Part shown: positions 964-46,163 of the stretch, in pieces
How the letters are laid out: each line of letters opens with the position of its first letter
Position numbering within the stretch: position 1 is the stretch's first letter
Source: Bacteroidota bacterium
Lineage (GTDB): Bacteria; Bacteroidota; Bacteroidia; B-17B0; Aurantibacillaceae
Direction of reading: 5' to 3'
Assembly (NCBI GenBank): GCA_018267475.1
Contig: JAFDYI010000005.1
Span: 1 to 64,000 of the forward strand
Length of the DNA stretch: 64,000 bases
Translations under genes and position numbers: made by a program
The notes under the pieces: generated by a model
Told to the model about the DNA's origin: nothing
The model's database searches: none
What the model saw: the letters and a program-made list of their open reading frames with translations, nothing else

Positions 964-3900
964 ATGAGCGAACGAATACTGAGAGCCCTCATGCAGCTTT
1001 TTGCCATCATTGCTAAGGTAGATGGCGTTACCAATACCGGCAGAACGGTGGTGCAACAGTTTTTAAAACAACAGTTAAACCAAGAGTTAGTAGAACAATA
1101 CCTTATTGTTTTTGATGAATTTTTAGAAGCACACCATCAGGTTACCAAAAAGAAAGACGGCACCGCCAAGCGCACCTCGCTAAACTCGGTAAAAGTGCTA
1201 AAAATATGTACCGAGATAAATAAAGAACTAGAGCAAAATCAAAAAATAATTGTGCTGATACGTTTGCTGGAATTTGTACACTCTTCCAACGAAATATCCG
1301 AACAAGAGTTGGAATTTGTAACTACCGTTGCCGAAACGTTTAATATATCCAACGAAGAGTTTAGCAACTTGCGTTATTTTGCTGAAAACAAAAAAGACAG
1401 CATCAACGCGCAAGAATTTTTAATTATTGATAACCACGCAGAAAACACACACGTATTTAAACATATACATTGCGAGCATTTTAACGATCAGATAGAAATA
1501 TGGGTTATATCCATACCCAGCGTGGGCATGTACGCGCTAAAACTAAACGGAAACCAAGAGCTTTTGCTAAACGGGCAAGCCGTTACCCCTCAAAAAATAT
1601 ACATTCTTACTCCGGGATCTTCCCTTAGAAGCCCGAAAGTAAAACCCATTTATTACTCCGATATTATTAGTCGCTTTTTAGCTGATAAATCCAGTGCGGT
1701 AGTGTCGTTTCAGGCGGTTGATTTGGAATACAAATTTTCAGGAGGCAAGTTAGGCTTGCGCGGCATCAATATCAATGAGCAAAGCGGCAAGCTGATAGGC
1801 ATTATGGGAGGCTCCGGAGCAGGAAAATCTACCTTGCTAAACGTATTAAATGGAAATGAAACACCCAGCGGCGGTGCCGTTTTAATAAACGGAGTAAACA
1901 TACATACCGAAAAACACAAAATAGAGGGCGTAATAGGACACGTAAGTCAAGACGATTTATTGATAGAAGAACTAACCGTATATCAAAACCTATTTTACAA
2001 CGCTAAACTTTGTTTCGGAAATTTAGACGACGTTCTTATTTCTGAGATGGTGATGAAAACCCTTACCGATTTGGGGTTGGAGCAAACGCGCGACCTAAAA
2101 GTAGGCTCCCCCTTAGAAAAAACCATTTCAGGAGGGCAAAGAAAGCGTTTAAATATTGGGCTGGAGCTTATTCGCGAACCGGCTGTACTGTTTGTTGATG
2201 AACCCACTTCGGGCTTGTCGTCAAGAGACTCAGAAAACATCATGGACCTACTAAAAGAGCTTTCCTTAAAAGGGAAATTAATTTTCGTAGTAATACACCA
2301 GCCCTCGTCAGACATATTTAAAATGTTTGACAAACTAATGATATTAGACGTAGGAGGCTACCCCGTTTACTACGGAAACCCCGTGGACGCCGTTATTTAT
2401 TTTAAACGATTAGTAAGCCATGTAAACGCCGAAGAAAGCGAATGCGTAGCCTGTGGTAACGTAAACCCCGAACAAATTTTTAACATCATAGAAACGAAAG
2501 TGGTAGATGAATTTGGAAACCTTACCAATAAACGAAAATTTTCTCCCTCAGAGTGGAGCGACCACTACCGAAAACTGATAGAAAAAAACATTCCTAAAGG
2601 AGGCTCTCACACCGATATACCCGAAAGCACTTTTAAAATTCCGAACAAAATAAAACAGTTCGTTATTTTTGCCACACGCGATATAAAAAGCAAACTTACC
2701 AATACCCAATACCTTCTTATCAATATGCTAGAAGCACCCGTATTGGCCGCCATCTTAGCCTTTGCCGTGCGCTACTACAACACCGATGCCGAAAATGGAA
2801 AAGGCTACATCTACCACGACAACGAAAACATACCCATTTATATGTTTATGAGCATTGTGGTTGCCCTTTTTATTGGCCTTACCGTAAGCGCCGAAGAAAT
2901 TATACGCGACCGAAAAATACAAAAGCGCGAATCGTTTTTGAACCTAAGCCGCATCAGCTACCTACTATCCAAAATGGGTATTATGTTCACCTTATCAGCC
3001 ATACAAACAGCCACCTTTATTTTGGTGGGCAACTCCATATTAGAAATACAAGGTATGTGGATAGACTACTGGTTGGTGCTCTTTACCACCTCGTGTTTTG
3101 CCAATATGTTGGGGCTTAACATCTCTTCAGCCTTCAACAGTGCCGTTACTATCTATATTATGATTCCTTTTTTAATTATTCCGCAACTGTTGCTAAGCGG
3201 CGTAATGGTAAAATTTGATAAGCTAAACCCCTCCATAGCCGTGCAAGGCGGAGTGCCTTTTATTGGCGAAGTAATGACCTCACGCTGGGCTTACGAAGCT
3301 TTGGCGGTTAATCAGTTTAAAACAAACGCCTACGAAAAACCATTTTATAAATACGACAAAGCCATATCGGAAGCCGGATACAAAAAAGATTACTGGGCGC
3401 AAAAAATGGCCGACAAATCATCTAAAATAGAAAAGCAATTAGGCAACCCAAAAAATAATTCGGAAACCGAAAAAGACCTGGAACTACTTCGTAATGAACT
3501 AAACAAAGAATATACTAAGCACAAAAACCTACCTAAATTTACCGATACCGAAAACTTATATTTAGGAAAGGTAAACCCGCAAATGTTGGATAATTTAAGA
3601 GACTACCTGCTTAATGCCAAGCCTAACTCATTAAAACAATACTATATAAACTTAGACAAAAGGGCTCGCGACGAGAAAGACAAAATAAACGCACAGTACA
3701 ACAGCCCCGAAACGCATGTTAAATTTATTGCCTTGATAAACGACTGCGATAACGAAGCGCTAAACAACCAACTAAAAAATGCCAACGATATAGGCGGCGA
3801 AGTATGTTTAGAAAAAGATGGGCGTTTTATACAACGAACCGATCCGGTGTTTTTAGACCCGGAAAACAACTACGGCAGAGCGCACTTCTTAGCCCCTCAA

Positions 3901-4077
3901 AAAAAACTATTTGGTGTAAAGTATCAAACCTTTTGGTTTAACATCAGTTTTATATGGACGATGAGCCTGCTTCTATTTGCATCGCTGTACTACGATTGGT
4001 TTAAAAATGTTTTAGATGGCTTTGGCAACTTATTTTCTTTTCTTATAAAAAAAATACGCAAGGCTAAAGCAGCTTAA
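964..4077 (+). CDS. ABC transporter, ABCG-like ATPase fused to permease, with TerB-like N-terminal region
   Basis: A 1037-residue fusion. Residues 1-145 are helical and acidic and resemble the TerB-like region of Bacteroidota transporters; residues 150-235 look beta-rich (FHA-like). The ATPase follows: Walker A GGSGAGKST near 281-289, signature ISGGQRKRLN near 386, Walker B VLFVDEPTSGL near 410, and H-loop VIHQPSSD near 443. This ABCG/White-type domain order (ATPase before membrane part) continues into a permease starting near 585. A hydrophilic stretch of roughly 200 residues (about 780-985) separates the main membrane part from a last transmembrane helix near residues 990-1012. The substrate cannot be told from sequence. 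The downstream lipoprotein gene has its own promoter but may work with it. Confidence 0.85.
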   Translation: MSERILRALMQLFAIIAKVDGVTNTGRTVVQQFLKQQLNQELVEQYLIVFDEFLEAHHQVTKKKDGTAKRTSLNSVKVLKICTEINKELEQNQKIIVLIRLLEFVHSSNEISEQELEFVTTVAETFNISNEEFSNLRYFAENKKDSINAQEFLIIDNHAENTHVFKHIHCEHFNDQIEIWVISIPSVGMYALKLNGNQELLLNGQAVTPQKIYILTPGSSLRSPKVKPIYYSDIISRFLADKSSAVVSFQAVDLEYKFSGGKLGLRGININEQSGKLIGIMGGSGAGKSTLLNVLNGNETPSGGAVLINGVNIHTEKHKIEGVIGHVSQDDLLIEELTVYQNLFYNAKLCFGNLDDVLISEMVMKTLTDLGLEQTRDLKVGSPLEKTISGGQRKRLNIGLELIREPAVLFVDEPTSGLSSRDSENIMDLLKELSLKGKLIFVVIHQPSSDIFKMFDKLMILDVGGYPVYYGNPVDAVIYFKRLVSHVNAEESECVACGNVNPEQIFNIIETKVVDEFGNLTNKRKFSPSEWSDHYRKLIEKNIPKGGSHTDIPESTFKIPNKIKQFVIFATRDIKSKLTNTQYLLINMLEAPVLAAILAFAVRYYNTDAENGKGYIYHDNENIPIYMFMSIVVALFIGLTVSAEEIIRDRKIQKRESFLNLSRISYLLSKMGIMFTLSAIQTATFILVGNSILEIQGMWIDYWLVLFTTSCFANMLGLNISSAFNSAVTIYIMIPFLIIPQLLLSGVMVKFDKLNPSIAVQGGVPFIGEVMTSRWAYEALAVNQFKTNAYEKPFYKYDKAISEAGYKKDYWAQKMADKSSKIEKQLGNPKNNSETEKDLELLRNELNKEYTKHKNLPKFTDTENLYLGKVNPQMLDNLRDYLLNAKPNSLKQYYINLDKRARDEKDKINAQYNSPETHVKFIALINDCDNEALNNQLKNANDIGGEVCLEKDGRFIQRTDPVFLDPENNYGRAHFLAPQKKLFGVKYQTFWFNISFIWTMSLLLFASLYYDWFKNVLDGFGNLFSFLIKKIRKAKAA

Positions 4078-4156
4078 TAAAAAAAGCCCCTCCCCTTTGT
4101 AGCATACTGCATGATGCCCCCCTTTTTTGGCTAATGCGTTTTAATATATTTTTTTA

Positions 4157-4164
4157 TATCTTTG
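4157..4164 (+). promoter_or_regulatory. -7 promoter element TATCTTTG for the lipoprotein gene
   Basis: An exact TAnnTTTG match whose last base lies 7 nt before the ATG at 4171. Transcription would start at or just before the start codon. The TTG at 4162, which would give a longer protein, lies inside this element and is rejected as the start. Confidence 0.6.
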
Positions 4165-4170
4165 TGCAGT

Positions 4171-4998
4171 ATGCGTATAAAAAAATTTATTTTATTTTTA
4201 ACGGTAATAACCAGTTTGTTCGCTTGCTCCTCTAACGAAAACGAGGAAAACATGAGCGATACAGCCGGTGCCGCCGAAAAGGCTGTGATAGAAGAACAAA
4301 AAATAAACGCTCAAAACGTATTTAACTCCATACCCGGTCCTAACGAACTATCTGAAATGGTAACACAAACCAATTTAGACTACGATATAAGCCTTACCAA
4401 CGACCCCATGAACCTCAACAAATACACCAGCGATGATGCTAAAGCCTTGGTACTGGGTATTTACGGGGGCGATATGGTATATGCCAATACTTACGAGCAA
4501 ACGCAAGAAAGCATGTCTTTTTTAAAATGCTTAAACAGCCTGTGCCGCAGCTTAGGTATTACCGATGCTTTTGACGATAAAACAGCAGACCGCCTGCAAG
4601 CCAATAGAGATAATAAAGACAGCCTGCTTACCATTGTTTCTAAATCGTTTAACCGCGCCGATGCTTTTTTAAGAGAGAACCAACGGCCGGGCACTTCGGC
4701 GCTAATGGTTGCCGGTGGGTGGATAGAAGGCTTGTACCTATCCGGTAAATTAGCTGAAAAATCAAAAAACAGACGATTGATACAAAAAATGAGTCAGCAG
4801 AAAAAATCGATTGCCGACCTAATTCAGTTAATACAAAACGGAAAAATAGCATCTGGAGCATCTTATGTGCTTACCGGCTTGCAAGATATACAAAACACCT
4901 ACAATAAAATTTCGGATACGGAGCCCATGAGCGAGGCACAACTATCGGAGCTAAACAATAAAGTTTTTGCTTTGCGTGCCAAAATGGTGGCCGTATAA
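4171..4998 (+). CDS. Putative lipoprotein of unknown function
   Basis: 275 residues from the ATG at 4171. The N-terminus is a lipoprotein signal: MRIKK, a hydrophobic run, then LFAC with the lipidation cysteine at position 19, followed by a Ser/Asn/Glu-rich linker. The mature part is mostly predicted helix, with a TPR-like or all-helical feel but no recognised motif, and includes a C-x6-C pair (FLKCLNSLCRSLG). It follows the ABC transporter on the same strand after 93 nt and has its own promoter. Export to the periplasm or outer membrane follows from the lipobox. I do not recognise the family. Confidence 0.7.
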   Translation: MRIKKFILFLTVITSLFACSSNENEENMSDTAGAAEKAVIEEQKINAQNVFNSIPGPNELSEMVTQTNLDYDISLTNDPMNLNKYTSDDAKALVLGIYGGDMVYANTYEQTQESMSFLKCLNSLCRSLGITDAFDDKTADRLQANRDNKDSLLTIVSKSFNRADAFLRENQRPGTSALMVAGGWIEGLYLSGKLAEKSKNRRLIQKMSQQKKSIADLIQLIQNGKIASGASYVLTGLQDIQNTYNKISDTEPMSEAQLSELNNKVFALRAKMVAV

Positions 4999-5029
4999 AA
5001 ATTCCGCATAAAAATACTTCGCGAAAAAT

Positions 5030-5368
5030 TTAATGCTGTTCAAAAAAAAGAGGATTTCCGTCCGGATCCAACACTAAAAAGTGCTTGCCGGAGCTGGTGC
5101 CTTCTTTAGCTTCTATCACAAACGGAATGCCTTTTTCTTTTAATTGTTTTTGTAATTCAAAAATATGTTGCACACTAAAGGTAATGGTATTGCGCGGAAT
5201 GACACCCTCATACAAGCCTACAATAAGCTGCCCGTTGCGCATAATAAGGTACTTTTGCTGCTCGTTGCTAAAGCGCTCGTCTATCACAAAACCCATTTTT
5301 TGATAAAAAGATTTTGATGCTTGCAAGCTCTTTACATTCAACGCGATGTGATGTTGCCCTAAATTCAT
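5030..5368 (-). CDS. VOC-family (glyoxalase/dioxygenase fold) protein
   Basis: A single VOC domain of 112 residues. The first strand carries HHIALNV, the middle has RNGQLIVGLYEG, and the end is LVLDPDGNPLFFEQH, the usual DPDGNxxxFE ending. This fold supports glyoxalase I, dioxygenases, fosfomycin-type transferases and antibiotic-binding proteins, so the substrate is not assigned. There are two close ATGs, at 5374 and 5368. The first overlaps the last base of a -7-like element (TACATTTA, 5381 to 5374), so the second is chosen, which makes the transcript nearly leaderless. It stands alone, convergent with the lipoprotein gene. Confidence 0.8.
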   Translation of the reverse strand: MNLGQHHIALNVKSLQASKSFYQKMGFVIDERFSNEQQKYLIMRNGQLIVGLYEGVIPRNTITFSVQHIFELQKQLKEKGIPFVIEAKEGTSSGKHFLVLDPDGNPLFFEQH

Positions 5369-5373
5369 ACGCA

Positions 5374-5381
5374 TAAATGTA
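5374..5381 (-). promoter_or_regulatory. Candidate -7 element for the VOC gene
   Basis: TACATTTA on the minus strand, 7 of 8 matches to TAnnTTTG, ending 6 nt before the chosen ATG. Confidence 0.35.
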
Positions 5382-5430
5382 CACTTTATTTACTTTCCCG
5401 CCAAAAAAGGAGGTGTTATTTTTTTCGTAA

Positions 5431-5469
5431 CCTTTTTAAAAAGGAGGGGCATCTCTATAAACTCCCTCC
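5431..5469 (-). terminator. Candidate terminator downstream of the RNase G gene
   Basis: On the minus strand GGAGGG and CCCTCC (5469-5464 and 5448-5443) pair around a 15-nt loop and are followed by TTTTT. The T run belongs to the perfect palindrome CCTTTTTAAAAAGG (5431-5444). It lies about 240 nt after the RNase G stop. The rest of 5369-5573 shows no gene. Confidence 0.45.
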
Positions 5470-5573
5470 AAAATTAGTCGTATTTATTAGTAGATAAAAA
5501 GCTGCTCATTCAAGCTAATAAATTTAATTAAACAAAAAACCTATGTTTAGGAAGCCCTTTCGAGGAGCTTACA

Positions 5574-5675
5574 ATGAGCCCACTCAATCCTCAGTATTTG
5601 ACAAAAAAGCAAAGTGTATTTCAGAGAATCCGTGCTTTTGTAGATACGTTTAAAGGAGTAGGAGAAAAAATTTGA
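5574..5675 (+). CDS. Possible small ORF (33 aa) behind a Shine-Dalgarno-like site
   Basis: ATG at 5574 opens a 33-residue frame ending [15 protein letters not shown] at 5562-5567 sits 6 nt upstream, an unusually good ribosome site for this genome. The peptide is basic (five Lys, three Arg) and could form an amphipathic helix. It lies alone on the plus strand in a 339-nt gap between convergent minus-strand genes, with no clear TAnnTTTG element before it. I do not recognise a family; it may be a remnant of a longer gene. Confidence 0.3.
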
Positions 5676-5707
5676 CTATCTATAATCATTTAGCATAATA
5701 GCAAACC

Positions 5708-7264
5708 TTAATACACAATTTCTTCATCGGCTTGGTTATAAAACTTAAATTGAGTAAAACCAAAAGAAGTCATGCTGCGCATGGTTATTTTACAACCTGT
5801 TGTTTTTTTCCATTTGTGCAGTAGGCTGTTCCAGAAAAAACCTTTGGTAATATAGGCTTCTATATATGGGTGCACGGCTAAGGTTAGCCTGTTTATTTTT
5901 TGCTCATTTACCACATACTTCAGGGCTGTTTCTATTTGCTCTACAAACAGTACGCTGGGCTGTATTTTTCCAGAGCCTTGGCAACTGGGGCAGCTTTCTT
6001 GCACGTCCACATTCATCTCGGGGCGTACGCGCTGGCGAGTAAGCTGTATCAAACCGAACCTGCTAGGAGGGAGTATGTTGTGCTTGGCCCTATCGCTTTT
6101 CATAAACTCTTTAAATTTTTCAAAAAGTTCTTTGCGATACTCAGGGTTTCGCATGTCAATAAAATCTACTACAATAATACCGCCCATATCGCGCAGGCGT
6201 AGTTGGCGTGCTATTTCGGCAGCGGCTTCTAAGTTTACAGCCAGTGCATTTTCATCTTGCGTATTAGCTGCTTTAGCACGGTTGCCGCTGTTTACATCAA
6301 TTACGTGCAAAGCCTCTGTATGCTCTACTATCAGGTAGGCTCCACTTTTTAAATAAACCGTTTTACCAAAAAGCGATTTTATTTGGCGCTCTACTCCAAA
6401 GCTATCAAAAATAGGTATTTTGCCTTCGTAAGGTTTTAGAATGTTTAGTTGGTCGGGGGCAATGTTTTTTAGGTAGGAAGTAATATCGCTGTGTATTTGC
6501 TTATCGTTGGTATGTATAGCTGAAAATTTTTCGTTTAGTATATCGCGCAACAAAGCATTGGTTCTATCTACCTCGCCCAACACTCGTGTAGGGGGAGTAG
6601 CTGTTTTTAATGTTTTAAAGCAAACTTCCCACTTGGCTATTAAATCATTCAGGTCGCTTTCTATTTCAGCTACGCTTTTGCCTTCGGCTACGGTGCGAAT
6701 AATGACTCCAAAGTTTTTGGGTTTGATGCTGGTAAGTAAATCTTTGAGGCGGTGTTTTTCTTCGTTGCTGCGAATTTTTGAAGATATAGATACTTTATCT
6801 GAAAACGGGATAAGCACAATAAAGCGCCCCGCCAAAGACACTTCGCAGGTAACGCGAGGCCCTTTAGCCGAAATGGGTTCTTTAGCTACTTGAATGAGTA
6901 TTTCTTGTCCGTTTTTTACTAATTCATTTATTTTTCCGTCTTTGGCAATATCCGCCTCCGGCTTAAAATACATGAGGTTTGATGAGTTTTGCTTGCCGCT
7001 GCGTACTTGCTCTACATACTTGTTGAGTGAAGATGCTTGGGGCCCTAAGTCAAGGTAGTGCAAAAAGGCGTCTTTTTCATAGCCTACATCTACAAAGGCG
7101 GCGTTTAGTCCGGTCATTACTTTTCCTACACGGCCAAAATAAATATCGCCTACCGCCCACTTTAGGTTTCCTTTTTCGCGATGCAGCTCTACCAAACGTT
7201 TATCGTTTAAAAGGGCAATAACAACATCTTCCGAAGTTTTATTGATAATAAGTTCGTAATTCAC
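5708..7264 (-). CDS. rng: Ribonuclease G/E family endoribonuclease
   Basis: 518 residues, the normal length for RNase G and for the catalytic half of RNase E. An S1-type RNA-binding region is embedded near residues 35-130 (AVGDIYFGRVGKVMTGLNAAFVDVGYEKDAFLH). Catalytic metal-binding aspartates appear in VIDVNSGN and in VVDFIDMRNPEYR, and the zinc-link CPSC motif follows. These enzymes cut single-stranded AU-rich RNA from a 5' monophosphate and act in rRNA maturation and mRNA decay in the cytoplasm. Translation starts at GTG (7262-7264). A 9-bp hairpin lies 35 nt upstream, between this gene and the tiny mS38-like gene. No C-terminal degradosome scaffold is present. Confidence 0.93.
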   Translation of the reverse strand: MNYELIINKTSEDVVIALLNDKRLVELHREKGNLKWAVGDIYFGRVGKVMTGLNAAFVDVGYEKDAFLHYLDLGPQASSLNKYVEQVRSGKQNSSNLMYFKPEADIAKDGKINELVKNGQEILIQVAKEPISAKGPRVTCEVSLAGRFIVLIPFSDKVSISSKIRSNEEKHRLKDLLTSIKPKNFGVIIRTVAEGKSVAEIESDLNDLIAKWEVCFKTLKTATPPTRVLGEVDRTNALLRDILNEKFSAIHTNDKQIHSDITSYLKNIAPDQLNILKPYEGKIPIFDSFGVERQIKSLFGKTVYLKSGAYLIVEHTEALHVIDVNSGNRAKAANTQDENALAVNLEAAAEIARQLRLRDMGGIIVVDFIDMRNPEYRKELFEKFKEFMKSDRAKHNILPPSRFGLIQLTRQRVRPEMNVDVQESCPSCQGSGKIQPSVLFVEQIETALKYVVNEQKINRLTLAVHPYIEAYITKGFFWNSLLHKWKKTTGCKITMRSMTSFGFTQFKFYNQADEEIVY

Positions 7265-7298
7265 GATTGTAAAATTGAATTATATACATACACCAAAA

Positions 7299-7322
7299 GC
7301 TGAAAAGAATATCCTTTTCAGC
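7299..7322 (-). promoter_or_regulatory. Perfect 9-bp hairpin upstream of rng (attenuator or terminator)
   Basis: GCTGAAAAG and CTTTTCAGC pair around a 6-nt loop. On the minus strand it is followed by TTTTGG, a short U run. It lies 29 nt after the mS38-like stop and 35 nt before the rng GTG, so it could partly end the upstream transcript or be a cleavage/control site in the rng leader. Confidence 0.5.
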
Positions 7323-7350
7323 CTAAGGCGATTTTATTTAAAAAAAATGA

Positions 7351-7440
7351 TTATTTCTTTTTATGGCGATTCTTTCTCAAACGTTTTTTGCGTTTGTGAG
7401 TAGCCATTTTATGACGTTTTCTTTTCTTTCCGCTTGGCAT
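7351..7440 (-). CDS. Small basic ribosomal protein, AURKAIP1/COX24 (mS38, bS22-like) domain
   Basis: A 29-residue protein starting MPSGKKRKRHKM and containing HKRKKRLRKNRHKKK; over half the residues are Lys, Arg or His. This pattern is the AURKAIP1/COX24 domain of mitochondrial small-subunit protein mS38, whose bacterial counterpart (bS22, as in mycobacteria) sits on 16S rRNA near the decoding region. Very short versions are found next to rng in Bacteroidota, as here: it lies between the TPR gene and rng on the same strand. A ribosomal role is inferred from the family. It is short enough to be missed by automatic gene callers. Confidence 0.85.
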   Translation of the reverse strand: MPSGKKRKRHKMATHKRKKRLRKNRHKKK

Positions 7441-7512
7441 AGTTTCTTTTTTTTGTGCTTTGGTATTTTGTTACCTCAGCTGGTTAAACATGATTCTATT
7501 TTCTCTTTTTAT

Positions 7513-8340
7513 TTAGCTATTCTGCAACTGCAGAATGTATTTTTTTATTTGTTCTTTAATCTCTTTGTCGGGCGTTAAAGCCACATATTTTTTTAGTGTT
7601 TCTATTGCTTTGTTTTTTTCACCTTGCTTTTCGTACGCATCGGCCAAAAACAGGTAGGCTTCCATGTAATCGGGCTGCAAGCGTAGTACTTTTTGGTACC
7701 GCAGCAGTGCTTTATCGTATTGGGCTGACTTTACCGCAAAACCCGCCAGCACCATTTGTACTTGCACATTAGTGCTATCGGCTTGTTCTACTTCTTTTAG
7801 CAGCGCAATGCCTTTCATGGGGTTTGTGCTTCCTTCTACCATACACGATGCTAATTGAATTTTGGCATCGGTATAATCAGCTTTTAAGGCTAATGCTTTG
7901 CTATAACAAAAGCTAGCTGCTGCAAGCAAACTTTGTTTTTGGGTGGCTTCTTGCACAAAGCCCGTAGTATAAAAATAACGGTTTCCGGCATGATACCACA
8001 TTTTTGGGGTGTTTGCTTTTTCTGCCTTTTTTTGAAAAAAGAAGCAGGAGGCTGCAGGCATTTTTTTTTCGTTGCAAAAATCAACTAAGGTATTAATGCT
8101 GGCCGTATCGTTTATATTTTTAGAGAGTGTCTGGAATTGCTCTTTATCTTTGGGCGATAAAACAGCTATTTGGGCATCTACTATCGTTTTTAAATCTACC
8201 GAAGGAGCGGCATCCTGTGGCGTTGCAGGCGCAACCGCAGTATCGGCTTTTTTTTCCGATTTTTTGTTGGCAATAAATAAAAGAACGAACAGAACAGCAG
8301 AGCAAGCAACAATAAGGAGTTGGAGCTTATTTGCTTTCAT
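7513..8340 (-). CDS. TPR-repeat protein with N-terminal membrane anchor
   Basis: 275 residues. One N-terminal hydrophobic helix (residues 7-24, LLIVACSAVLFVLLFIAN) is followed by a charged linker, then at least three tetratricopeptide units toward the C-terminus (AQYDKALLRYQKVLRLQPD, MEAYLFLADAYEKQGEKNKAIETLKK). TPRs mediate protein-protein contacts; the partner is unknown. The helix suggests the repeats face the periplasm. Its start overlaps the end of the HU gene by 14 nt, so the two are co-transcribed and probably translationally coupled. The HU-TPR-rng order is conserved in many Bacteroidota. Confidence 0.85.
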   Translation of the reverse strand: MKANKLQLLIVACSAVLFVLLFIANKKSEKKADTAVAPATPQDAAPSVDLKTIVDAQIAVLSPKDKEQFQTLSKNINDTASINTLVDFCNEKKMPAASCFFFQKKAEKANTPKMWYHAGNRYFYTTGFVQEATQKQSLLAAASFCYSKALALKADYTDAKIQLASCMVEGSTNPMKGIALLKEVEQADSTNVQVQMVLAGFAVKSAQYDKALLRYQKVLRLQPDYMEAYLFLADAYEKQGEKNKAIETLKKYVALTPDKEIKEQIKKYILQLQNS

Positions 8341-8626
8341 TTACTTTCACATTTTTTTTAATTTTTTCTGAAAATGTTTTGGCGGGTTTAAACGCCGGTA
8401 TGTAATGTGCAGGTATTTTTATTTCTTGGTTTTTGGTAATAATGCGCCCTACTTTAGCCGCTCTTTTTTTGCATAAAAAAGTACCAAAACCGCGTAGGTA
8501 GATATTTTCTCCTTTCACCATATTGCCTTTTACTACTTTCATAAACGACTCTATGGTATTTAATACTATAGCCCGCTCTACTCCGGTTTTTTCAGCAATC
8601 TCGTTTATTATGTCTGCTTTTGTCAT
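8327..8626 (-). CDS. hup: HU-family DNA-binding protein
   Basis: 99 residues from ATG 8624-8626, with the typical start MTKADIINEIAEKTG and the arm region RGFGTFLCKKRAAKVGR followed by IPAHYIPAFKPAKTF. HU dimers bend DNA and compact the nucleoid; the IHF/HU fold is clear, but which subgroup it belongs to is not. An upstream in-frame start at 8659 would read through the promoter element at 8648-8655 and is rejected. A C-terminal basic tail follows the standard fold. It heads the operon with the TPR protein, the mS38-like gene and possibly rng. Confidence 0.93.
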   Translation of the reverse strand: MTKADIINEIAEKTGVERAIVLNTIESFMKVVKGNMVKGENIYLRGFGTFLCKKRAAKVGRIITKNQEIKIPAHYIPAFKPAKTFSEKIKKNVKVNESK

Positions 8627-39349: not shown

Positions 39350-40100
39350 AAATAAAGAAGCCCCTGCGTGCAGGGGCTTCTTTACAACTAATAAACAGAG
39401 TATGTTTAATCCTTAATAAACTTGATGTAAGTACCTTGGGTTAATATGGTATAAATACCCGAAGCATAAGCACTTACGTTTAATTGAGTTTGAGTGTCTT
39501 TTACTTGCAGCACTTCTACTACCTGTCCAATAGCGTTGTAAACCGTAATCGTTCCTAACTCGCTACTGGCTTGTACCGTTACTTGGTTGCTGGCCGGGTT
39601 GGGGTAAACAGATAAGTTATTTTGTGCATAACGGGCTATCCCGGTGCAAGCATCTACTACTAAAGCCACGCTGTCTTTATTAGAACAAGAAGTGGTGCTA
39701 TTGGTATAGCTATACACTACATTAAAAGTACCGGTAGCTGCAGTGGGGGTAAAGGTGTTGCCGCTTACATGAGTACCGCTATATACGCCTCCTGCGGGGC
39801 TTCCGGTTAAAGTTATAGGAGTACCATTTACACATACGCTGGGCGATGAAGCCGTTAATGAAAGCGTAGGCAAAGCATTTACATTTACCGCTACTGTAGC
39901 GGTGTTTACACAACCGTTGGCATCGGTACCCGTTACGGTGTAAGAAGTGGCTGCGGTAGGGCTAACACTTATATTAGCGCTAGTAGCAGACGTATTCCAT
40001 GCGTAACTTACAGCACCTGTAGCACGTAGGCTATCGCTGCTGCCTGTACAGATTGCAGCAGAAGCAGCCGTAGCGGTTACGTTGGGTAAGGCATTTACAG
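39350..40100 (-). repeat. 3' cassette copy A: terminator, sorting domain and last Ig-like repeats
   Basis: Near-identical to 42490-43240; by eye roughly 30 mismatches and no indels over about 750 nt. Covers the terminator, the non-coding spacer, the sorting domain and two upstream domains. Confidence 0.85.
39354..39383 (-). terminator. Strong hairpin terminator after the FG-GAP adhesin gene
   Basis: AAAGAAGCCCCTGC and its complement pair almost without loop; the minus strand continues TTTATTTTG. It is shared by the convergent PorE-like gene. An identical copy lies at 42494-42523. Confidence 0.9.
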
Positions 40101-42318
40101 GGACAGAAACGGTATCCATATTGACGCAACCATTAACATCAGTGCCCACTACGGTATATGTTGTAGTAACCGTAGGTGTTATGGTAATGCTTACCGTAGT
40201 AGCACTGGTACTCCATGTATAAGTAGAAGCGCCACTAGCGTTTAGTATATCATTGCTGCCTGAGCATATAGCTGTTGTAGATGTGGCCGTGGCTGTTACC
40301 GTGGGTAAAGAATTAACCGTAACAGTGGTAGTAATTGCGTTAGAAACACAGCCTACACTAGTAGTACCCACTACGTTGTACGTAGTGTTAACCGTAGGTG
40401 TTACGCTTATGCTAGCAGTGTTATCAGATGTACTCCAAGTATAAGTACTTACGTTATTGCTAGCTGTGAGCGTGGTGGTGCTGCCTATACAAACGCTTGT
40501 ATTCCCGCCTACCGTAATAGTGGGCGCTACGTAAGCAGGTGCGTAACTAGCGCTGGTAACAGCACCCGGGGTTACCCAGTTGCTATTTGCACCGTTTAAA
40601 GTAAAATTAGCCATAGGTATATCGTTGCTGTTTCCAGAAGAGTCTCTTATAGTTGTAACAGAGGCGTTGTTTAATCCCGCAGCTCCTTCGTTAAATTTAT
40701 AATAGGCTAACAATCCATTTTGAGGCATGGGCAACTCACCGTACAGGTAGTTTTGTATCTCGGTTTGGCATAATGCCCTATTCCAAAAACGAACCTCATC
40801 TATATCTCCATCAAATTTTTCTGTTCCTCCTTGGTTAGAGCCAATTGCAAAAGAGCCGGACGGAGTATTAGGGATAACGGTGGTAGTAAAAGTGTAAGCC
40901 GCCCCATTTACATATAACATCCAATTGTTTCCTTGAGAGGTAACCATCACATTAGTCCATACATTAGGAGCGACAGTAACCGTAGAAGTAAGTATAAAAA
41001 CACCTCCAACTACAACAGATAAATATTGTGAATTATCCATAAAAAGAGCATAACCCGAAGATCCAGTGTTACCATTAGAAACAATCATTTGATTACCACC
41101 TGTATTTACTCCCGACCAGTTTACATAAGCACCAAATGTAATATTATCGGTGAGGGTTGAAAAGTTAGGGATAATAGCATTGTTGCTAGTAGAAGCTTGA
41201 AAATTTAAAGCAGCACCGGGGGTAACACATTGTAGCAGTACAGATGCGTTGTAATCAGAGCTATTAACATTTGCCAAATCTATTTTACTGTCTCCGTTAA
41301 AATCAGTAGCTATTGCGCAATATGGCCCATTGCCTACCATATAGCTTCCGCCTGATCCAAAAGTACCACTTCCGCTATTTAATAATACTGTAGCATTCTT
41401 GCTTCCAAAATTTACAGTAGCTAAATCCATCTTAGTGTCTCCATTAAAATCTGCAGAACACACAGAGTACACACCATTTCCCACGCTATAACTAACTGCT
41501 GTGCTAAAAGAAGTTCCGGTGCCATTGTTTAACAACACGGAAACGTTGTTTCCGCTATAGTTAGCAGCCGCTATATCGGCTATACCATCTCCGTTATAAT
41601 CGGCAGCCGTTACAGAAACAGGCATTGCTCCCACATTGTAATTAGAAGCTGCACCAAAAGTACCTGTTCCGCTATTTAAAATAACAGATACGTTATTAGA
41701 TGATGAGTTCGCCGCTACCACATCTGGTTTTCCATCTCCATTAAAATCAGCAGTAGCTATATATAAAGGAAAACTTCCAACCCCATAATAAGCTGTTGAA
41801 CCAAAAGTACCGGTACCGCTATTTAACAGAATAGATACATTGTGAGTAGCCTCGTTAGCCGTTGCTAAGTCAGGCGAGCCATCTCCATTAAAATCCGCTG
41901 AAACTACACAATAAGGAGAATTGGCAGTTGTATAAGTTACAGCAGCAGCGAAAGTGCCCGTACCACTGTTTATATACACCCCCACTTTATTGTCCCCTTC
42001 ATCAGCTACAGCTAAATCTTGCTTTCCATCACCATTAAAATCAGCAGCACAAATAGAATACGGATAACTCCCTGCCGGATAATTTACCATAGAGGAAAAA
42101 GTACCGTCACCATTATTAAACAACACTGAAATGTTGCTGCTAGAAGCGTTTGCTGTTGCCATATCCGGATGCCCATCACCGTTAAAATCGGCAGAACATA
42201 CCGAATACGGCTCGGCTCCTGTACCATAGGTTACTTGAGGACTAAAGCACAATCCCTGCGCTGTTCCTTTTACATTCATAGCCGCTAAGACAGCTATACT
42301 TAGTAGTATTTTTTTCAT
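39406..42318 (-). CDS. Large T9SS-secreted adhesin: seven FG-GAP repeats, LamG domain, Ig-like repeats
   Basis: 970 residues from ATG 42316-42318 (MKKILLSIAVLAAMNVKGTAQ is the signal peptide). Seven FG-GAP/VCBS units follow (about 25-365), each with a calcium-loop-like D-x-N-G-D-x-x-x-D motif (e.g. ADFNGDGHPDMA). Next are a LamG jellyroll (about 370-600; GDIDEVRFWNRALC), several PKD/Ig-like repeats of about 80 residues (TYTWSTSDNT, TYTWSTSATT, SYAWNTSATS) and a type A sorting domain (YPNPASNQVTVQAS to TYIKFIKD). A surface or secreted binding protein, ligand unknown. Its 3' end is nearly identical to that of the next gene. The start at 42366 is rejected because it lies upstream of the promoter's -7 element. 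Confidence 0.88.
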   Translation of the reverse strand: MKKILLSIAVLAAMNVKGTAQGLCFSPQVTYGTGAEPYSVCSADFNGDGHPDMATANASSSNISVLFNNGDGTFSSMVNYPAGSYPYSICAADFNGDGKQDLAVADEGDNKVGVYINSGTGTFAAAVTYTTANSPYCVVSADFNGDGSPDLATANEATHNVSILLNSGTGTFGSTAYYGVGSFPLYIATADFNGDGKPDVVAANSSSNNVSVILNSGTGTFGAASNYNVGAMPVSVTAADYNGDGIADIAAANYSGNNVSVLLNNGTGTSFSTAVSYSVGNGVYSVCSADFNGDTKMDLATVNFGSKNATVLLNSGSGTFGSGGSYMVGNGPYCAIATDFNGDSKIDLANVNSSDYNASVLLQCVTPGAALNFQASTSNNAIIPNFSTLTDNITFGAYVNWSGVNTGGNQMIVSNGNTGSSGYALFMDNSQYLSVVVGGVFILTSTVTVAPNVWTNVMVTSQGNNWMLYVNGAAYTFTTTVIPNTPSGSFAIGSNQGGTEKFDGDIDEVRFWNRALCQTEIQNYLYGELPMPQNGLLAYYKFNEGAAGLNNASVTTIRDSSGNSNDIPMANFTLNGANSNWVTPGAVTSASYAPAYVAPTITVGGNTSVCIGSTTTLTASNNVSTYTWSTSDNTASISVTPTVNTTYNVVGTTSVGCVSNAITTTVTVNSLPTVTATATSTTAICSGSNDILNASGASTYTWSTSATTVSITITPTVTTTYTVVGTDVNGCVNMDTVSVPVNALPNVTATAASAAICTGSSDSLRATGAVSYAWNTSATSANISVSPTAATSYTVTGTDANGCVNTATVAVNVNALPTLSLTASSPSVCVNGTPITLTGSPAGGVYSGTHVSGNTFTPTAATGTFNVVYSYTNSTTSCSNKDSVALVVDACTGIARYAQNNLSVYPNPASNQVTVQASSELGTITVYNAIGQVVEVLQVKDTQTQLNVSAYASGIYTILTQGTYIKFIKD
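40550..41215 (-). repeat. LamG module shared between the two adhesins, copy A
   Basis: Encodes the same LamG domain as 43480-44146 with few amino-acid differences; starts GAALNFQASTSNNAI and contains GDIDEVR(F/L)WNRALC. Confidence 0.8.
41230..42260 (-). repeat. Seven tandem FG-GAP repeats within the adhesin gene
   Basis: Units of about 145 nt, each encoding (Y/V)S(V/I)xxADFNGDGxxDxA, then NxSVLxNxGxGTF. They differ from one another, so they are old, not recent copies. Confidence 0.8.
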
Positions 42319-42336: not shown

Positions 42337-42366
42337 CAAAAATAAACTTAAATAGATAAACCGCAA
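42337..42366 (-). promoter_or_regulatory. Promoter of the FG-GAP adhesin gene
   Basis: TTG (42366-42364) and an exact TATTTTTG (42344-42337) on the minus strand, 19 nt apart; leader about 12 nt. Confidence 0.6.
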
Positions 42367-42489: not shown

Positions 42490-43240
42490 AAATAAAGAAG
42501 CCCCTGCGTGCAGGGGCTTCTTTACAACTAATAAACAGAGCATGTTTAATCCTTAATAAACTTGATATAAGTACCTTGGGCTAATATGGTATAAATACCC
42601 GAAGCATAAGTACTTACGTTTAATTGAGTTTGAGTGTCTTTTACTTGCAGCACTTCTACTACTTGTCCAATAGCGTTGTAAACCGTAACCATGCCTAACT
42701 CGCTACTGGCTTGTACCGTTACTTGGTTGCTGGCCGGGTTGGGGTAAACAGATAAGTTATTTTGTGCGTAACGGGCTATGCCGGTGCAAGCATCTACTAC
42801 TAAAGCCACGCTGTCTTTATTAGAACAAGAAGTGGTGCTATTGGTATAGCTATACACTACATTAAAAGTACCGGTAGCTGCGGTGGGGGTAAAGATGTTA
42901 CCACTTACATGAGTACCGCTATATACGCCTCCTGCGGGGCTTCCGGTTAAAGTGATAGGGGTACCATTTACACATACGCTGGGCGATGAGGCCGTTAATG
43001 AAAGCGTAGGCAAAGCATTTACATTTACCGCTACTGTAGCGGTGTTTACACAACCGTTGGCATCAGTACCCGTTACGGTATAAGAAGTGGCTGCAGTAGG
43101 GCTAACGCTTATATTAGCGCTAGTAGCAGACGTATTCCATGCGTAACTTACAGCGCCTGTGGCTCGTAAGCTATCGCTGCTGCCTGTACAGATTGCAGCA
43201 GAAGCAGCCGTAGCGGTTACGTTGGGTAAAGCGTTTACAG
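42490..43240 (-). repeat. 3' cassette copy B: terminator, sorting domain and last Ig-like repeats
   Basis: Partner of copy A at 39350-40100, same orientation, 3.1 kb away. Conservation runs through the non-coding terminator, which selection on protein function alone would not explain. Confidence 0.85.
42494..42523 (-). terminator. Hairpin terminator after the LamG adhesin gene
   Basis: The same 14-bp stem as at 39354-39383, followed by TTTATTTTG on the minus strand. Confidence 0.9.
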
Positions 43241-46061
43241 TAACTGTTGTAACGGCTACATTTGATGGACAGCCTAATAAAGTCCCGCTTACTGAATACG
43301 TAGTATTTACGGTAGGGCTTTCTACCACACTTGTCGTATTATCGCTTGTGCTCCAAGTATAAGTATCCAATGTGGTGCCTGTTGCTGTTAATGTAGTAGT
43401 AGCACCTATACAAATGCTTACTGTATTACCGCTTATGGTAATAGCAGGCGCTACATAAGCAGGCGCGTAACTGCCTGTCGTTACGGCACCGGGGGCTACC
43501 CAATTGCTATTTGCACCATTTAAAGTAAAATTAACCATAGGTATGTCGTTGCTGTTTCCAGAAGAATCACTTACGGTTGTAACAGAGGCATTATTCGCTC
43601 CTGCGGCTCCTTCGTTAAATTTATAATAGGCTAACAATCCGTTTTGAGGCATAGGCAACTCACCGTACAGGTAATTTTGTATCTCAGTTTGGCATAATGC
43701 TCTATTCCAAAGACGAACTTCATCTATATCTCCATCAAAATTTTCAGTACCTGCCTGATTAGAACCAATTGCAAACGAGCCGGACGGAATATTAGGGGTA
43801 ACGGTGGTAGTAAAAGTATAAGCCGCTCCATTTACATATAACATCCAATTGTTTCCTTGAGAGGTAACCATCACATTAGTCCATACATTAGGAGCGACAG
43901 TAACCGTAGAAGTAAGTACAAAAACGCCTCCAACTACAATAGATAAATATTGTGAATTATCCATAAAAAGGGCGTAACCCGAACTAGCAGTATTTCCATT
44001 AGTTACAATCATTTGATTGCCACCTGTGTTTACTCCCGACCAGTTTACATAAGCACCAAAAGTAATATTATCGGTAAGGGTTGAAAATACAGGAGAAATA
44101 GCATTGTTGCTAGTAGAAGCTTGGAAATTTAAAGCAGCGCCGGGGGTGTTAACAGTAACCGTGCTTGTTGCCATAGATGTACATCCATTAGTTGTACCGG
44201 TTACCGTATAATAAGTTGTTATAGTGGGTGTAACGGCTATAGAAGCTGAGGTAGCTGAAGTGCTCCAACTGTAAGTAGTAGCACCATTAGCAGTTAAAGT
44301 AGCTGTACCACCTATAAAAATAGCTGGGCTATTAACTGTTACCGTTGGGGGAACAAAAGCAGGCGCGTAACTGCCTGTAGTTACGGCACCGGGGGCTACC
44401 CAATTGCTGGTAGTGCCGTTTAAGGTAAAGTTGGTTAGCGTACCGTTATTTCCATTTCCTGATGAGTCAGCAGCAACAGTAACAGTTGCGTTATTAACCC
44501 CTGCCAAACCTTCATTAAATGGATAATAAGCCATTAAGCCGGTTTGAGGCATTTTTAACTCTGCGTTCATGCTGTTTTGTATTTCTCCTTGACACAAGGC
44601 ACGATTCCAAATACGTACTTCATCTATAGTACCATTGAAGTAATTAATGCCGGTTAAGATGCGACCAATGTCTATTTGGGCAGGAGCATTACGCGGGTTT
44701 GTGCTTCCTGTACCGGTTGATTCCAATACGCCATCAACATAAACCGACATCGCGCCTGTACTCATAACCCAAGTACCAGCTACGTGATGCCAATTGCCAT
44801 CATTAATAGATGTAGTAGAAGTTATTGTTACATCAGGGTTACCTATGCCTAAAGCAAAGTTATTTCCAACTAAAGCCGTTCCAAAATCATTAACAACGCC
44901 AGAAACTTCGGCATCAACCATCCCTATGCCGCTATACCATTGCGGACCACCACCTGTTTGTGTGGTTTTTACCCAGTATTCAATAGTAAAATCGCTGCTT
45001 ATAACTTCATTGATAGGAACATAATTATTAGTGCCGTTAAAGTTTAGGGCGGCTCCTTTTATTATTATGGTATCTTGTGTTGATGACACACAGCCTACTG
45101 CACTTGTTCCACTTACGGTGTAAATAGTTGCGATGGCAGGTGATACAACTGTTGTATTCGTATTATCACCCGTGCTCCAAGTATAAGTAGCTGTGCCGCT
45201 TGCCGTTAAAGTTGTTGAAGTGCTTGGAAGTACTGTAGTAGATGTTGGATTTACAGTCACAACTCCTCCTCCGTTACCAACAAAATTTGATGTAGTGCCC
45301 GTAAGTGCAAAGTTATTTAAACTACCATCATAGCCATGACCTGTAACATCAATAACGCTTGTTATAGCCGTATTGTTTCCATCAGCAATACCGTTATCAA
45401 AATTATAGTAAGCCAAAAGCCCGGTAGCTGTTCTTACGGTAGAGCACATATCGGTCTGCACATCGCTTTGCGAACGAGTAATAGTCCAAACACGCAGTTC
45501 ATCCAAACTTCCTTTAGATTGCTCACCGCCACCTGCGCTTAACGCCCCCATAGTAAGGGTATTTCCGCCCATTGAGCTGGTAAGACAATCTCTATAGGTT
45601 TGCCCGGCATACGGAGGGCCATAAGTAGTTGTGCCGCTGCCTACCACATTTCCATTGGCAAAAAAAGTATAGTTCCCGCTTCCGTCTATGGAAAAAGCAA
45701 CATGCACCCATTGTCCGGCGGTATAGGTAAAAGGCGCCTGAATGCCTGTATTATCCCAAGCAGTACCAGAGTTATAACCAATATCACAATAAATTTTATT
45801 ACCATCAACCAATTTAAAATCAAAAGTGTTGTTGTAGTTAGATGGATTTCCGCCTCTTGTACTTACTACTACAAAATCAGTTCCAGTAGTAGCCACCGCT
45901 GGGTTTACCCAGGCTTCTACAGTAAAAGGCGTCAGTATGCCCTGTGGGAGGGTACCAACCACTACTCGGTCATCAACTCCATCAAAATTGAGAGCGGCTC
46001 CCGTTTGTGCGTTTGCATTTAAACAGCCAAATGCAAAAGCTGATAATAAAAATTTTTTCAT
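42546..46061 (-). CDS. Large T9SS-secreted adhesin with three LamG domains and Ig-like repeats
   Basis: 1171 residues from ATG 46059-46061; signal peptide MKKFLLSAFAFGCLNANAQ. Order: LamG 1 (about 22-250), Ig-like, LamG 2 (about 340-590; GTIDEVRIWNRALC), Ig-like, LamG 3 (about 670-900; GDIDEVRLWNRALC), three Ig/PKD-like repeats, and a type A sorting domain (YPNPASNQVTVQAS, ending IKFIKD). LamG folds bind glycans or proteins. LamG 3 through the sorting domain closely matches the neighbouring FG-GAP adhesin. Expression may be under the AraC-type gene just upstream, whose stop lies 120 nt before this ATG and whose gap carries direct repeats. The longer start at 46142 would read through the promoter and is rejected. 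Confidence 0.88.
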   Translation of the reverse strand: MKKFLLSAFAFGCLNANAQTGAALNFDGVDDRVVVGTLPQGILTPFTVEAWVNPAVATTGTDFVVVSTRGGNPSNYNNTFDFKLVDGNKIYCDIGYNSGTAWDNTGIQAPFTYTAGQWVHVAFSIDGSGNYTFFANGNVVGSGTTTYGPPYAGQTYRDCLTSSMGGNTLTMGALSAGGGEQSKGSLDELRVWTITRSQSDVQTDMCSTVRTATGLLAYYNFDNGIADGNNTAITSVIDVTGHGYDGSLNNFALTGTTSNFVGNGGGVVTVNPTSTTVLPSTSTTLTASGTATYTWSTGDNTNTTVVSPAIATIYTVSGTSAVGCVSSTQDTIIIKGAALNFNGTNNYVPINEVISSDFTIEYWVKTTQTGGGPQWYSGIGMVDAEVSGVVNDFGTALVGNNFALGIGNPDVTITSTTSINDGNWHHVAGTWVMSTGAMSVYVDGVLESTGTGSTNPRNAPAQIDIGRILTGINYFNGTIDEVRIWNRALCQGEIQNSMNAELKMPQTGLMAYYPFNEGLAGVNNATVTVAADSSGNGNNGTLTNFTLNGTTSNWVAPGAVTTGSYAPAFVPPTVTVNSPAIFIGGTATLTANGATTYSWSTSATSASIAVTPTITTYYTVTGTTNGCTSMATSTVTVNTPGAALNFQASTSNNAISPVFSTLTDNITFGAYVNWSGVNTGGNQMIVTNGNTASSGYALFMDNSQYLSIVVGGVFVLTSTVTVAPNVWTNVMVTSQGNNWMLYVNGAAYTFTTTVTPNIPSGSFAIGSNQAGTENFDGDIDEVRLWNRALCQTEIQNYLYGELPMPQNGLLAYYKFNEGAAGANNASVTTVSDSSGNSNDIPMVNFTLNGANSNWVAPGAVTTGSYAPAYVAPAITISGNTVSICIGATTTLTATGTTLDTYTWSTSDNTTSVVESPTVNTTYSVSGTLLGCPSNVAVTTVTVNALPNVTATAASAAICTGSSDSLRATGAVSYAWNTSATSANISVSPTAATSYTVTGTDANGCVNTATVAVNVNALPTLSLTASSPSVCVNGTPITLTGSPAGGVYSGTHVSGNIFTPTAATGTFNVVYSYTNSTTSCSNKDSVALVVDACTGIARYAQNNLSVYPNPASNQVTVQASSELGMVTVYNAIGQVVEVLQVKDTQTQLNVSTYASGIYTILAQGTYIKFIKD
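43480..44146 (-). repeat. LamG module shared between the two adhesins, copy B
   Basis: Partner of copy A. LamG 1 and LamG 2 of the same gene are far less similar, so the copying was between genes and not within this one. Confidence 0.8.
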
Positions 46062-46086: not shown

Positions 46087-46094
46087 CAAAAGTA
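46087..46094 (-). promoter_or_regulatory. -7 element TACTTTTG of the LamG adhesin gene
   Basis: An exact match, 26 nt before the ATG. No TTG lies at the 19-nt position (the nearest is 11 nt away), which fits a promoter needing an activator. Confidence 0.6.
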
Positions 46095-46119
46095 AAGGGT
46101 AGCTACAAAAAAAAGATAG

Positions 46120-46163
46120 CCCGAAAAGGTTTTATTAAACAAATAACAACCCGAAAAGGTTTT
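46120..46163 (-). promoter_or_regulatory. Two direct repeats AAAACCTTTTCGGG, 30 bp apart (candidate AraC operator)
   Basis: Minus-strand copies at 46163-46150 and 46133-46120 are identical over 14 nt and exactly three helical turns apart. The near copy begins 25 nt upstream of the -7 element, where class II activators bind. The gene just upstream encodes an AraC-family regulator. Confidence 0.6.

Follow-up and report, generated by a model that had tools for sequence, protein, structure and literature searches.

Paired Direct Repeats as Predicted Operators of a Probable AraC-Type Activator beside a T9SS Adhesin Gene in Bacteroidia

In the window, the 64-kb stretch of DNA that was analysed here, a 14-nt repeat occurs twice in the short gap between a gene for an AraC-type regulator and a gene for a LamG adhesin that carries a type IX secretion system (T9SS) sorting domain. 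The explanation that we regard as highly probable is that the two direct repeats are operators from which the regulator, acting as an activator, turns on expression of the adhesin next to it. A link between the two genes had been proposed in an earlier note on this DNA, and comparative genomics now supports it strongly; binding and activation are what we infer from the comparison. The regulator belongs to a previously undescribed family that almost always adjoins a large secreted surface protein. The features of the region are collected in Table 1.

Table 1. Features of the regulator-adhesin region, with positions in the window.
Feature	Position	Strand	Basis or remark
AraC-type regulator, 358 aa	46182-47258	-	HTH_18, residues 285-356
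Distal repeat AAAACCTTTTCGGG	46150-46163	-	Predicted distal operator, 30 bp further upstream
Proximal repeat AAAACCTTTTCGGG	46120-46133	-	Core of the predicted proximal operator, next to the -33 position
Extended proximal operator TAAAACCTTTTCGGGCTAT	about 46115-46133	-	Predicted
-7 element TACTTTTG (TAnnTTTG) of the LamG adhesin promoter	46087-46094	-	Sequence
LamG adhesin, T9SS sorting domain	42546-46061	-	Predicted target; Pfam; ATG at 46061
FG-GAP adhesin promoter TTG-N19-TATTTTTG	42337-42366	-	No operator; predicted outside the regulator's control

The Repeat Pair and the Adhesin Promoters

The two copies of AAAACCTTTTCGGG lie on the minus strand in the 120-nt gap that separates the regulator stop (46182) from the LamG adhesin ATG (46061). 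Both this gap, downstream of the AraC-type gene, and the exact start-to-start distance of 30 bp agree with the earlier note; the three helical turns that it had read into this distance are 2.86 turns rather than exactly three. AAAACCTTTTCGGG is the sole 14-mer that recurs at 14-100 bp within the window, where Markov models of order 1-4 lead one to expect 0.03-0.2 such pairs per 64 kb, or 0-0.025 pairs if six or more G/C are required, as in AAAACCTTTTCGGG. A scan of the organism's own genome (2.76 Mb) for such pairs, which had been suggested as a check, returned a single occurrence of CCTTTTCGGG-N20-CCTTTTCGGG, even when three mismatches were allowed. The single copies of AAAACCTTTTCGGG with one mismatch were all intragenic (7/7) and were not commoner than those of the reversed control. 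With the pair unique and these single copies all within genes, a motif dispersed over the own genome was rejected.

The two 30-nt units of the repeat pair are 80% alike and the distal copy can form part of a weak hairpin, as might be expected if the pair were the product of chance or of a slippage-made tandem duplication, or belonged to a hairpin that terminates the regulator gene, and had no regulatory role. We find this hardly credible, since the folding equals that of shuffles (z = -0.08), a search of the gap for a terminator found none, and unrelated gaps contain a related motif whose promoter spacing is the same, as described below. A hairpin or terminator role of the repeats was rejected on the first two of these results.

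The predicted target of the regulator contains three Laminin_G_3 domains and a Por_Secre_tail domain (Pfam), the latter with 42.2 bits against a cut-off of 27, which identifies the LamG adhesin as T9SS cargo. Its promoter was described earlier as having a -7 element without a well-spaced -33, and this description holds: no TTG or TTTG was found at 15-24 nt before TACTTTTG. The good -33 ascribed to the other adhesin of the window was likewise recovered, as TTG-N19-TATTTTTG, and the repeat motif, looked for upstream of this FG-GAP adhesin, was absent. Because it has a normal promoter and no operator site, the FG-GAP adhesin is probably outside the control of the AraC-type regulator.

A strong, terminator-like hairpin, AAGAAGCCCCTGCACGCAGGGGCTTCTT, is located directly after the FG-GAP adhesin stop (39355-39382) and is found again between the LamG adhesin stop and the FG-GAP adhesin promoter. 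As this hairpin follows each adhesin stop, each of the two adhesins probably has a transcript of its own. The last 233 residues of the two proteins (window positions 39406-40107 and 42546 onward) are 97% identical, and their N-terminal parts differ. Another adhesin paralogue on contig C13 of the same genome shows 89% identity over its final 320 residues. These tails point to a recent exchange or duplication. The upstream regions of the adhesin paralogues in the own genome were also examined, and the motif was absent from them.

The Regulator Family and Its Genomic Partners

Membership of the regulator in the AraC/XylS family is given by HTH_18, which scores 63.6 bits against a Pfam gathering score of 33.6. 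The N-terminal half of the protein has no family match and no sequence match in the Protein Data Bank, and a single-sequence structure model was too poor for use (mean pLDDT 35). With TIGR04094 (adjacent_YSIRK), the regulator scores 51.9 bits, far below the curated cut-off of 200, and only the HTH part aligns; it is therefore no member of that family. To our knowledge, no shared operator is known for the TIGR04094 family.

Profile searches of whole genomes identified 20 further members of the regulator family in class Bacteroidia. Ten are copies within the same taxonomic family, in 9 of its other 86 genomes (a search at the order level is the same as one at the family level, as the order contains the same 87 genomes), and 10 more full-length members come from other families of the class. 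Most pairs of regulators are 25-40% identical. The distribution is patchy, within the genus as well, and the polA neighbourhood, examined in congeners, showed no araC-adhesin pair. Named genomes that were scanned with a peptide pattern for the regulator gave no match; the members were recovered with profiles.

Gene maps revealed a secreted surface protein next to the regulator in 19 of the 20 loci that could be judged, the window included; locus G099, which is cut by a contig end, was excluded. Of these 19 neighbours, 14 carry a Pfam T9SS sorting domain (Por_Secre_tail or CHU_C). Four of the remainder end at contig or stretch limits before the C-terminus, and that of G301b was matched by our own CTD profile only. 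This profile was built from the tails under study and had one mis-framed training row, so it was used for the controls and G301b only, and the members rest on Pfam. The neighbours are divergent, on the same strand downstream or, in G230, on the same strand upstream; a small secreted gene separates the regulator from the surface-protein gene at one of the G096 loci and at one of the G301 loci, and the G200 neighbour is a T9SS protein of 158 aa. In their main domains the neighbour proteins are unrelated, with LamG, RCC1, NHL, FG-GAP, SprB repeats and DUF7948 among them.

Among control AraC-type genes, only one in 24 (18 control loci) had such a neighbour, in genomes whose background is about 100-150 or more T9SS sorting domains each. 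On strict counts, the pairing with a surface protein is 15/16 versus 1/24 (Fisher p = 6e-9). The one control gene with such a neighbour (L254) scores 118 bits with the regulator family profile, and this AraC-type gene may be a distant member of the family.

Two of the homologous loci (L113 and L114) come from different genera and have regulators that are 84% identical and the same operator pair, next to adhesins of unrelated architecture (FG-GAP/LamG and DUF7948/CHU_C). It looks as if a regulator-plus-operator cassette had moved between adhesin genes.

The Shared Motif of the Predicted Operators

De novo motif discovery with the window left out yielded ATGTCTTTTnGG(G/AG)C upstream of the surface-protein genes at the homologous regulator loci, with a log-likelihood of 146 compared to 51-60 in shuffles. 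When the gap of the window was scored with the matrix trained in this way, the repeats were its two best sites, with 9.2 bits for the proximal site (46117-46132) and 4.3 bits for the distal one (46147-46162). By eye, TAAAACCTTTTCGGGCTAT agrees with AAATGTCTTTTCGGGCTAT at 15 of 19 positions. The window repeats are a diverged version of this class-wide motif. On score alone the proximal site ranks only 13th in the 64 kb, since its left half-site is AAACC and departs from the ATGTC of the motif. Within the window, it alone combines at least 9 bits with a TAnnTT at 25-26 nt.

The earlier reading had been staked on repeats beside orthologous regulator-adhesin pairs, and these are present: for most of the 20 homologous regulators, the motif stands upstream of the adjacent surface-protein gene, as a direct repeat or as one copy, and its spacing to the -7 element is constant. 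Direct repeats of TTTTAGCTTTTAGGGCAGATT occur 32 and 31 bp apart in the G108 and G075 gaps, and those of ATGTCTTTTTGGGCTAT 53 bp apart in a G096 gap, the second G096 locus having imperfect copies at 21 bp. The direct repeats of the G418 and G301 gaps are 31 and 21 bp apart, respectively. Two-mismatch repeats in the G032 and G004 gaps were at chance level and were set aside. G066 has a weak site only, and the strong site of G004 faces the regulator, not the adhesin. No site was found at G301:C13, the sole regulator without an adhesin neighbour, and in G230, where the adhesin is upstream of the regulator, the site accompanies the adhesin promoter.

The surroundings of the homologues (295 kb) contain 23 sites of at least 15 bits, nearly all of them upstream of surface-protein or regulator genes, compared to four in 423 kb of control DNA, which are all intragenic and lack the -7 spacing. 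Exact-pattern searches of 16 genomes added a few intergenic sites, mostly before further secreted-protein genes, such as a second T9SS gene (G163:C15:12692) and an unlinked LamG gene (G230:C3:64914 and 65146). One such site precedes the regulator gene itself in G061 (G061:C1:5129258), which suggests that this regulator is autoregulated. In G010 (L070 5566), a second operator-like site of 16.8 bits faces another LamG/T9SS gene (5658-8603) across the regulator, and the regulator may serve two surface proteins there.

A Thr in the first recognition helix (S-x-T-K) goes together with TGTC in the left half-site, and regulators with another residue at this position, Ser in the window and Ala in G108 and G075, have other left half-site bases. 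This co-variation of recognition helix and operator emerged in hindsight and is no more than suggestive.

At both G096 loci (L115 and L116), a TPR histidine kinase and a LytTR response regulator are encoded just upstream of the AraC gene and precede the adhesin as well. In the own genome, the closest LamG adhesin paralogue (L061, contig C13, positions 1283-3786 and 3943-6480) also follows such a kinase and response regulator. These arrangements suggest a second, linked layer of adhesin control.

The G096 loci would also fit a motif that belongs to another factor, for example a LytTR response regulator or a special sigma factor, with the AraC gene as a mere neighbour. This seems very unlikely. 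Most loci lack a kinase or response regulator, what they share being the AraC gene, and the own-genome adhesin behind the kinase and LytTR pair has no motif. The -7 element, moreover, fits the ordinary consensus, which is TAnnTTTG in Bacteroidota (PMC7366714; PMC2483708), and the bases of the left half-site change together with the AraC protein's first recognition helix, in the post hoc comparison given above.

Promoter Geometry and Proposed Mechanism

In 12 of 17 promoters, the GG of the proximal site is 25 nt from TAnnTT, and in three it is 26 nt; every other distance occurs at most twice. The window has 26 nt between the proximal GG and the -7 element. At 25-26 nt before the -7 element, the operator site adjoins the -33 position. 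The repeats themselves are spaced at 21, 21, 30, 31, 31, 32 and 53 bp, close to whole helical turns, and these spacings are in phase with a period of 10.5 bp (R = 0.93, p = 5e-4), although some of them belong to related regulators and cannot be counted as independent. The G401 pair, which is 204 bp apart, was left out of the phasing test.

Taken together, these results predict that the repeats serve as operators for the AraC-type regulator whose gene lies immediately upstream. The regulator would bind the proximal copy, which adjoins the -33 position on its upstream side, and also the distal copy, which lies on approximately the same helical face. Once bound, it would recruit RNA polymerase, to which this promoter offers a good -7 and no -33, and the T9SS-exported LamG adhesin would be switched on by class-II-type AraC activation. 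The N-terminal domain would sense an effector or signal that governs the regulator.

Sequence alone does not give the direction of control, and a regulator bound to a site next to the -33 region could also block the polymerase, covering the upstream promoter region and repressing the adhesin until a signal releases it; repeats as far apart as 53 bp (G096b) or 204 bp (G401) could then support a loop. Such repression is unlikely, since a fixed distance between site and -7 element at the target promoters is needed for contact by an activator, not for repression, and a promoter without -33, as in the window, is what is expected if transcription depends on an activator. A known analogue, EbrB of Enterococcus faecium, is an activator: its deletion lowers the expression of the neighbouring Esp gene (PMC3669262).

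Comparison with Known Systems and Significance

The closest analogue of the predicted activator and its adhesin is formed by EbrB-Esp and the TIGR04094 (adjacent_YSIRK) regulators of Gram-positives, such as Spy1337/R28 (PMC7098570). In these systems, too, an AraC-type regulator is encoded beside the surface-protein gene that it controls, control being predicted in our case. They differ in phylum, in the N-terminal domain of the regulator and in the export route of the surface protein, with a YSIRK signal and LPXTG there and T9SS here. AggR of enteroaggregative Escherichia coli is similar in that an AraC-family site is placed at a fixed short distance upstream of a core promoter element at adhesin (fimbrial) genes, 21-23 bp from the -10 (PMC6392122) compared to 25-26 nt from the -7 here. 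However, AggR acts globally and its TATC site is AT-rich, whereas the present family has mostly one regulator per neighbour and a CTTTTnGGG-like motif, usually or often as direct repeats. Regulation tied to the type IX secretion system of Bacteroidota is also represented by PorXY of Porphyromonas gingivalis, where PorX does not bind the promoters of T9SS machinery genes (PMC5005315); in contrast, the dedicated regulators described here appear to serve single cargo genes. Searches of the open-access literature turned up no AraC regulator described as dedicated to T9SS cargo.

More broadly, we lean slightly towards a portable one-regulator-one-adhesin module across Bacteroidia, in which an AraC subfamily, set apart by an N-terminal domain and an operator of its own (ATGTCTTTTnGGGC, placed 25 nt before the -7), would act on unrelated T9SS targets, the operator being read by a code in the recognition helix that changes along with it. 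The regulator family matters because the genomes have about 100-150 or more T9SS sorting domains each, and open-access papers yielded no published dedicated regulators for individual cargo genes. The operator and its -7 spacing offer a handle for finding more such regulator-adhesin pairs. With the target marked by its position and a recognisable operator, conditional adhesin expression becomes testable at about 20 loci. Operator and regulator are probably the means by which these bacteria turn on individual adhesins.
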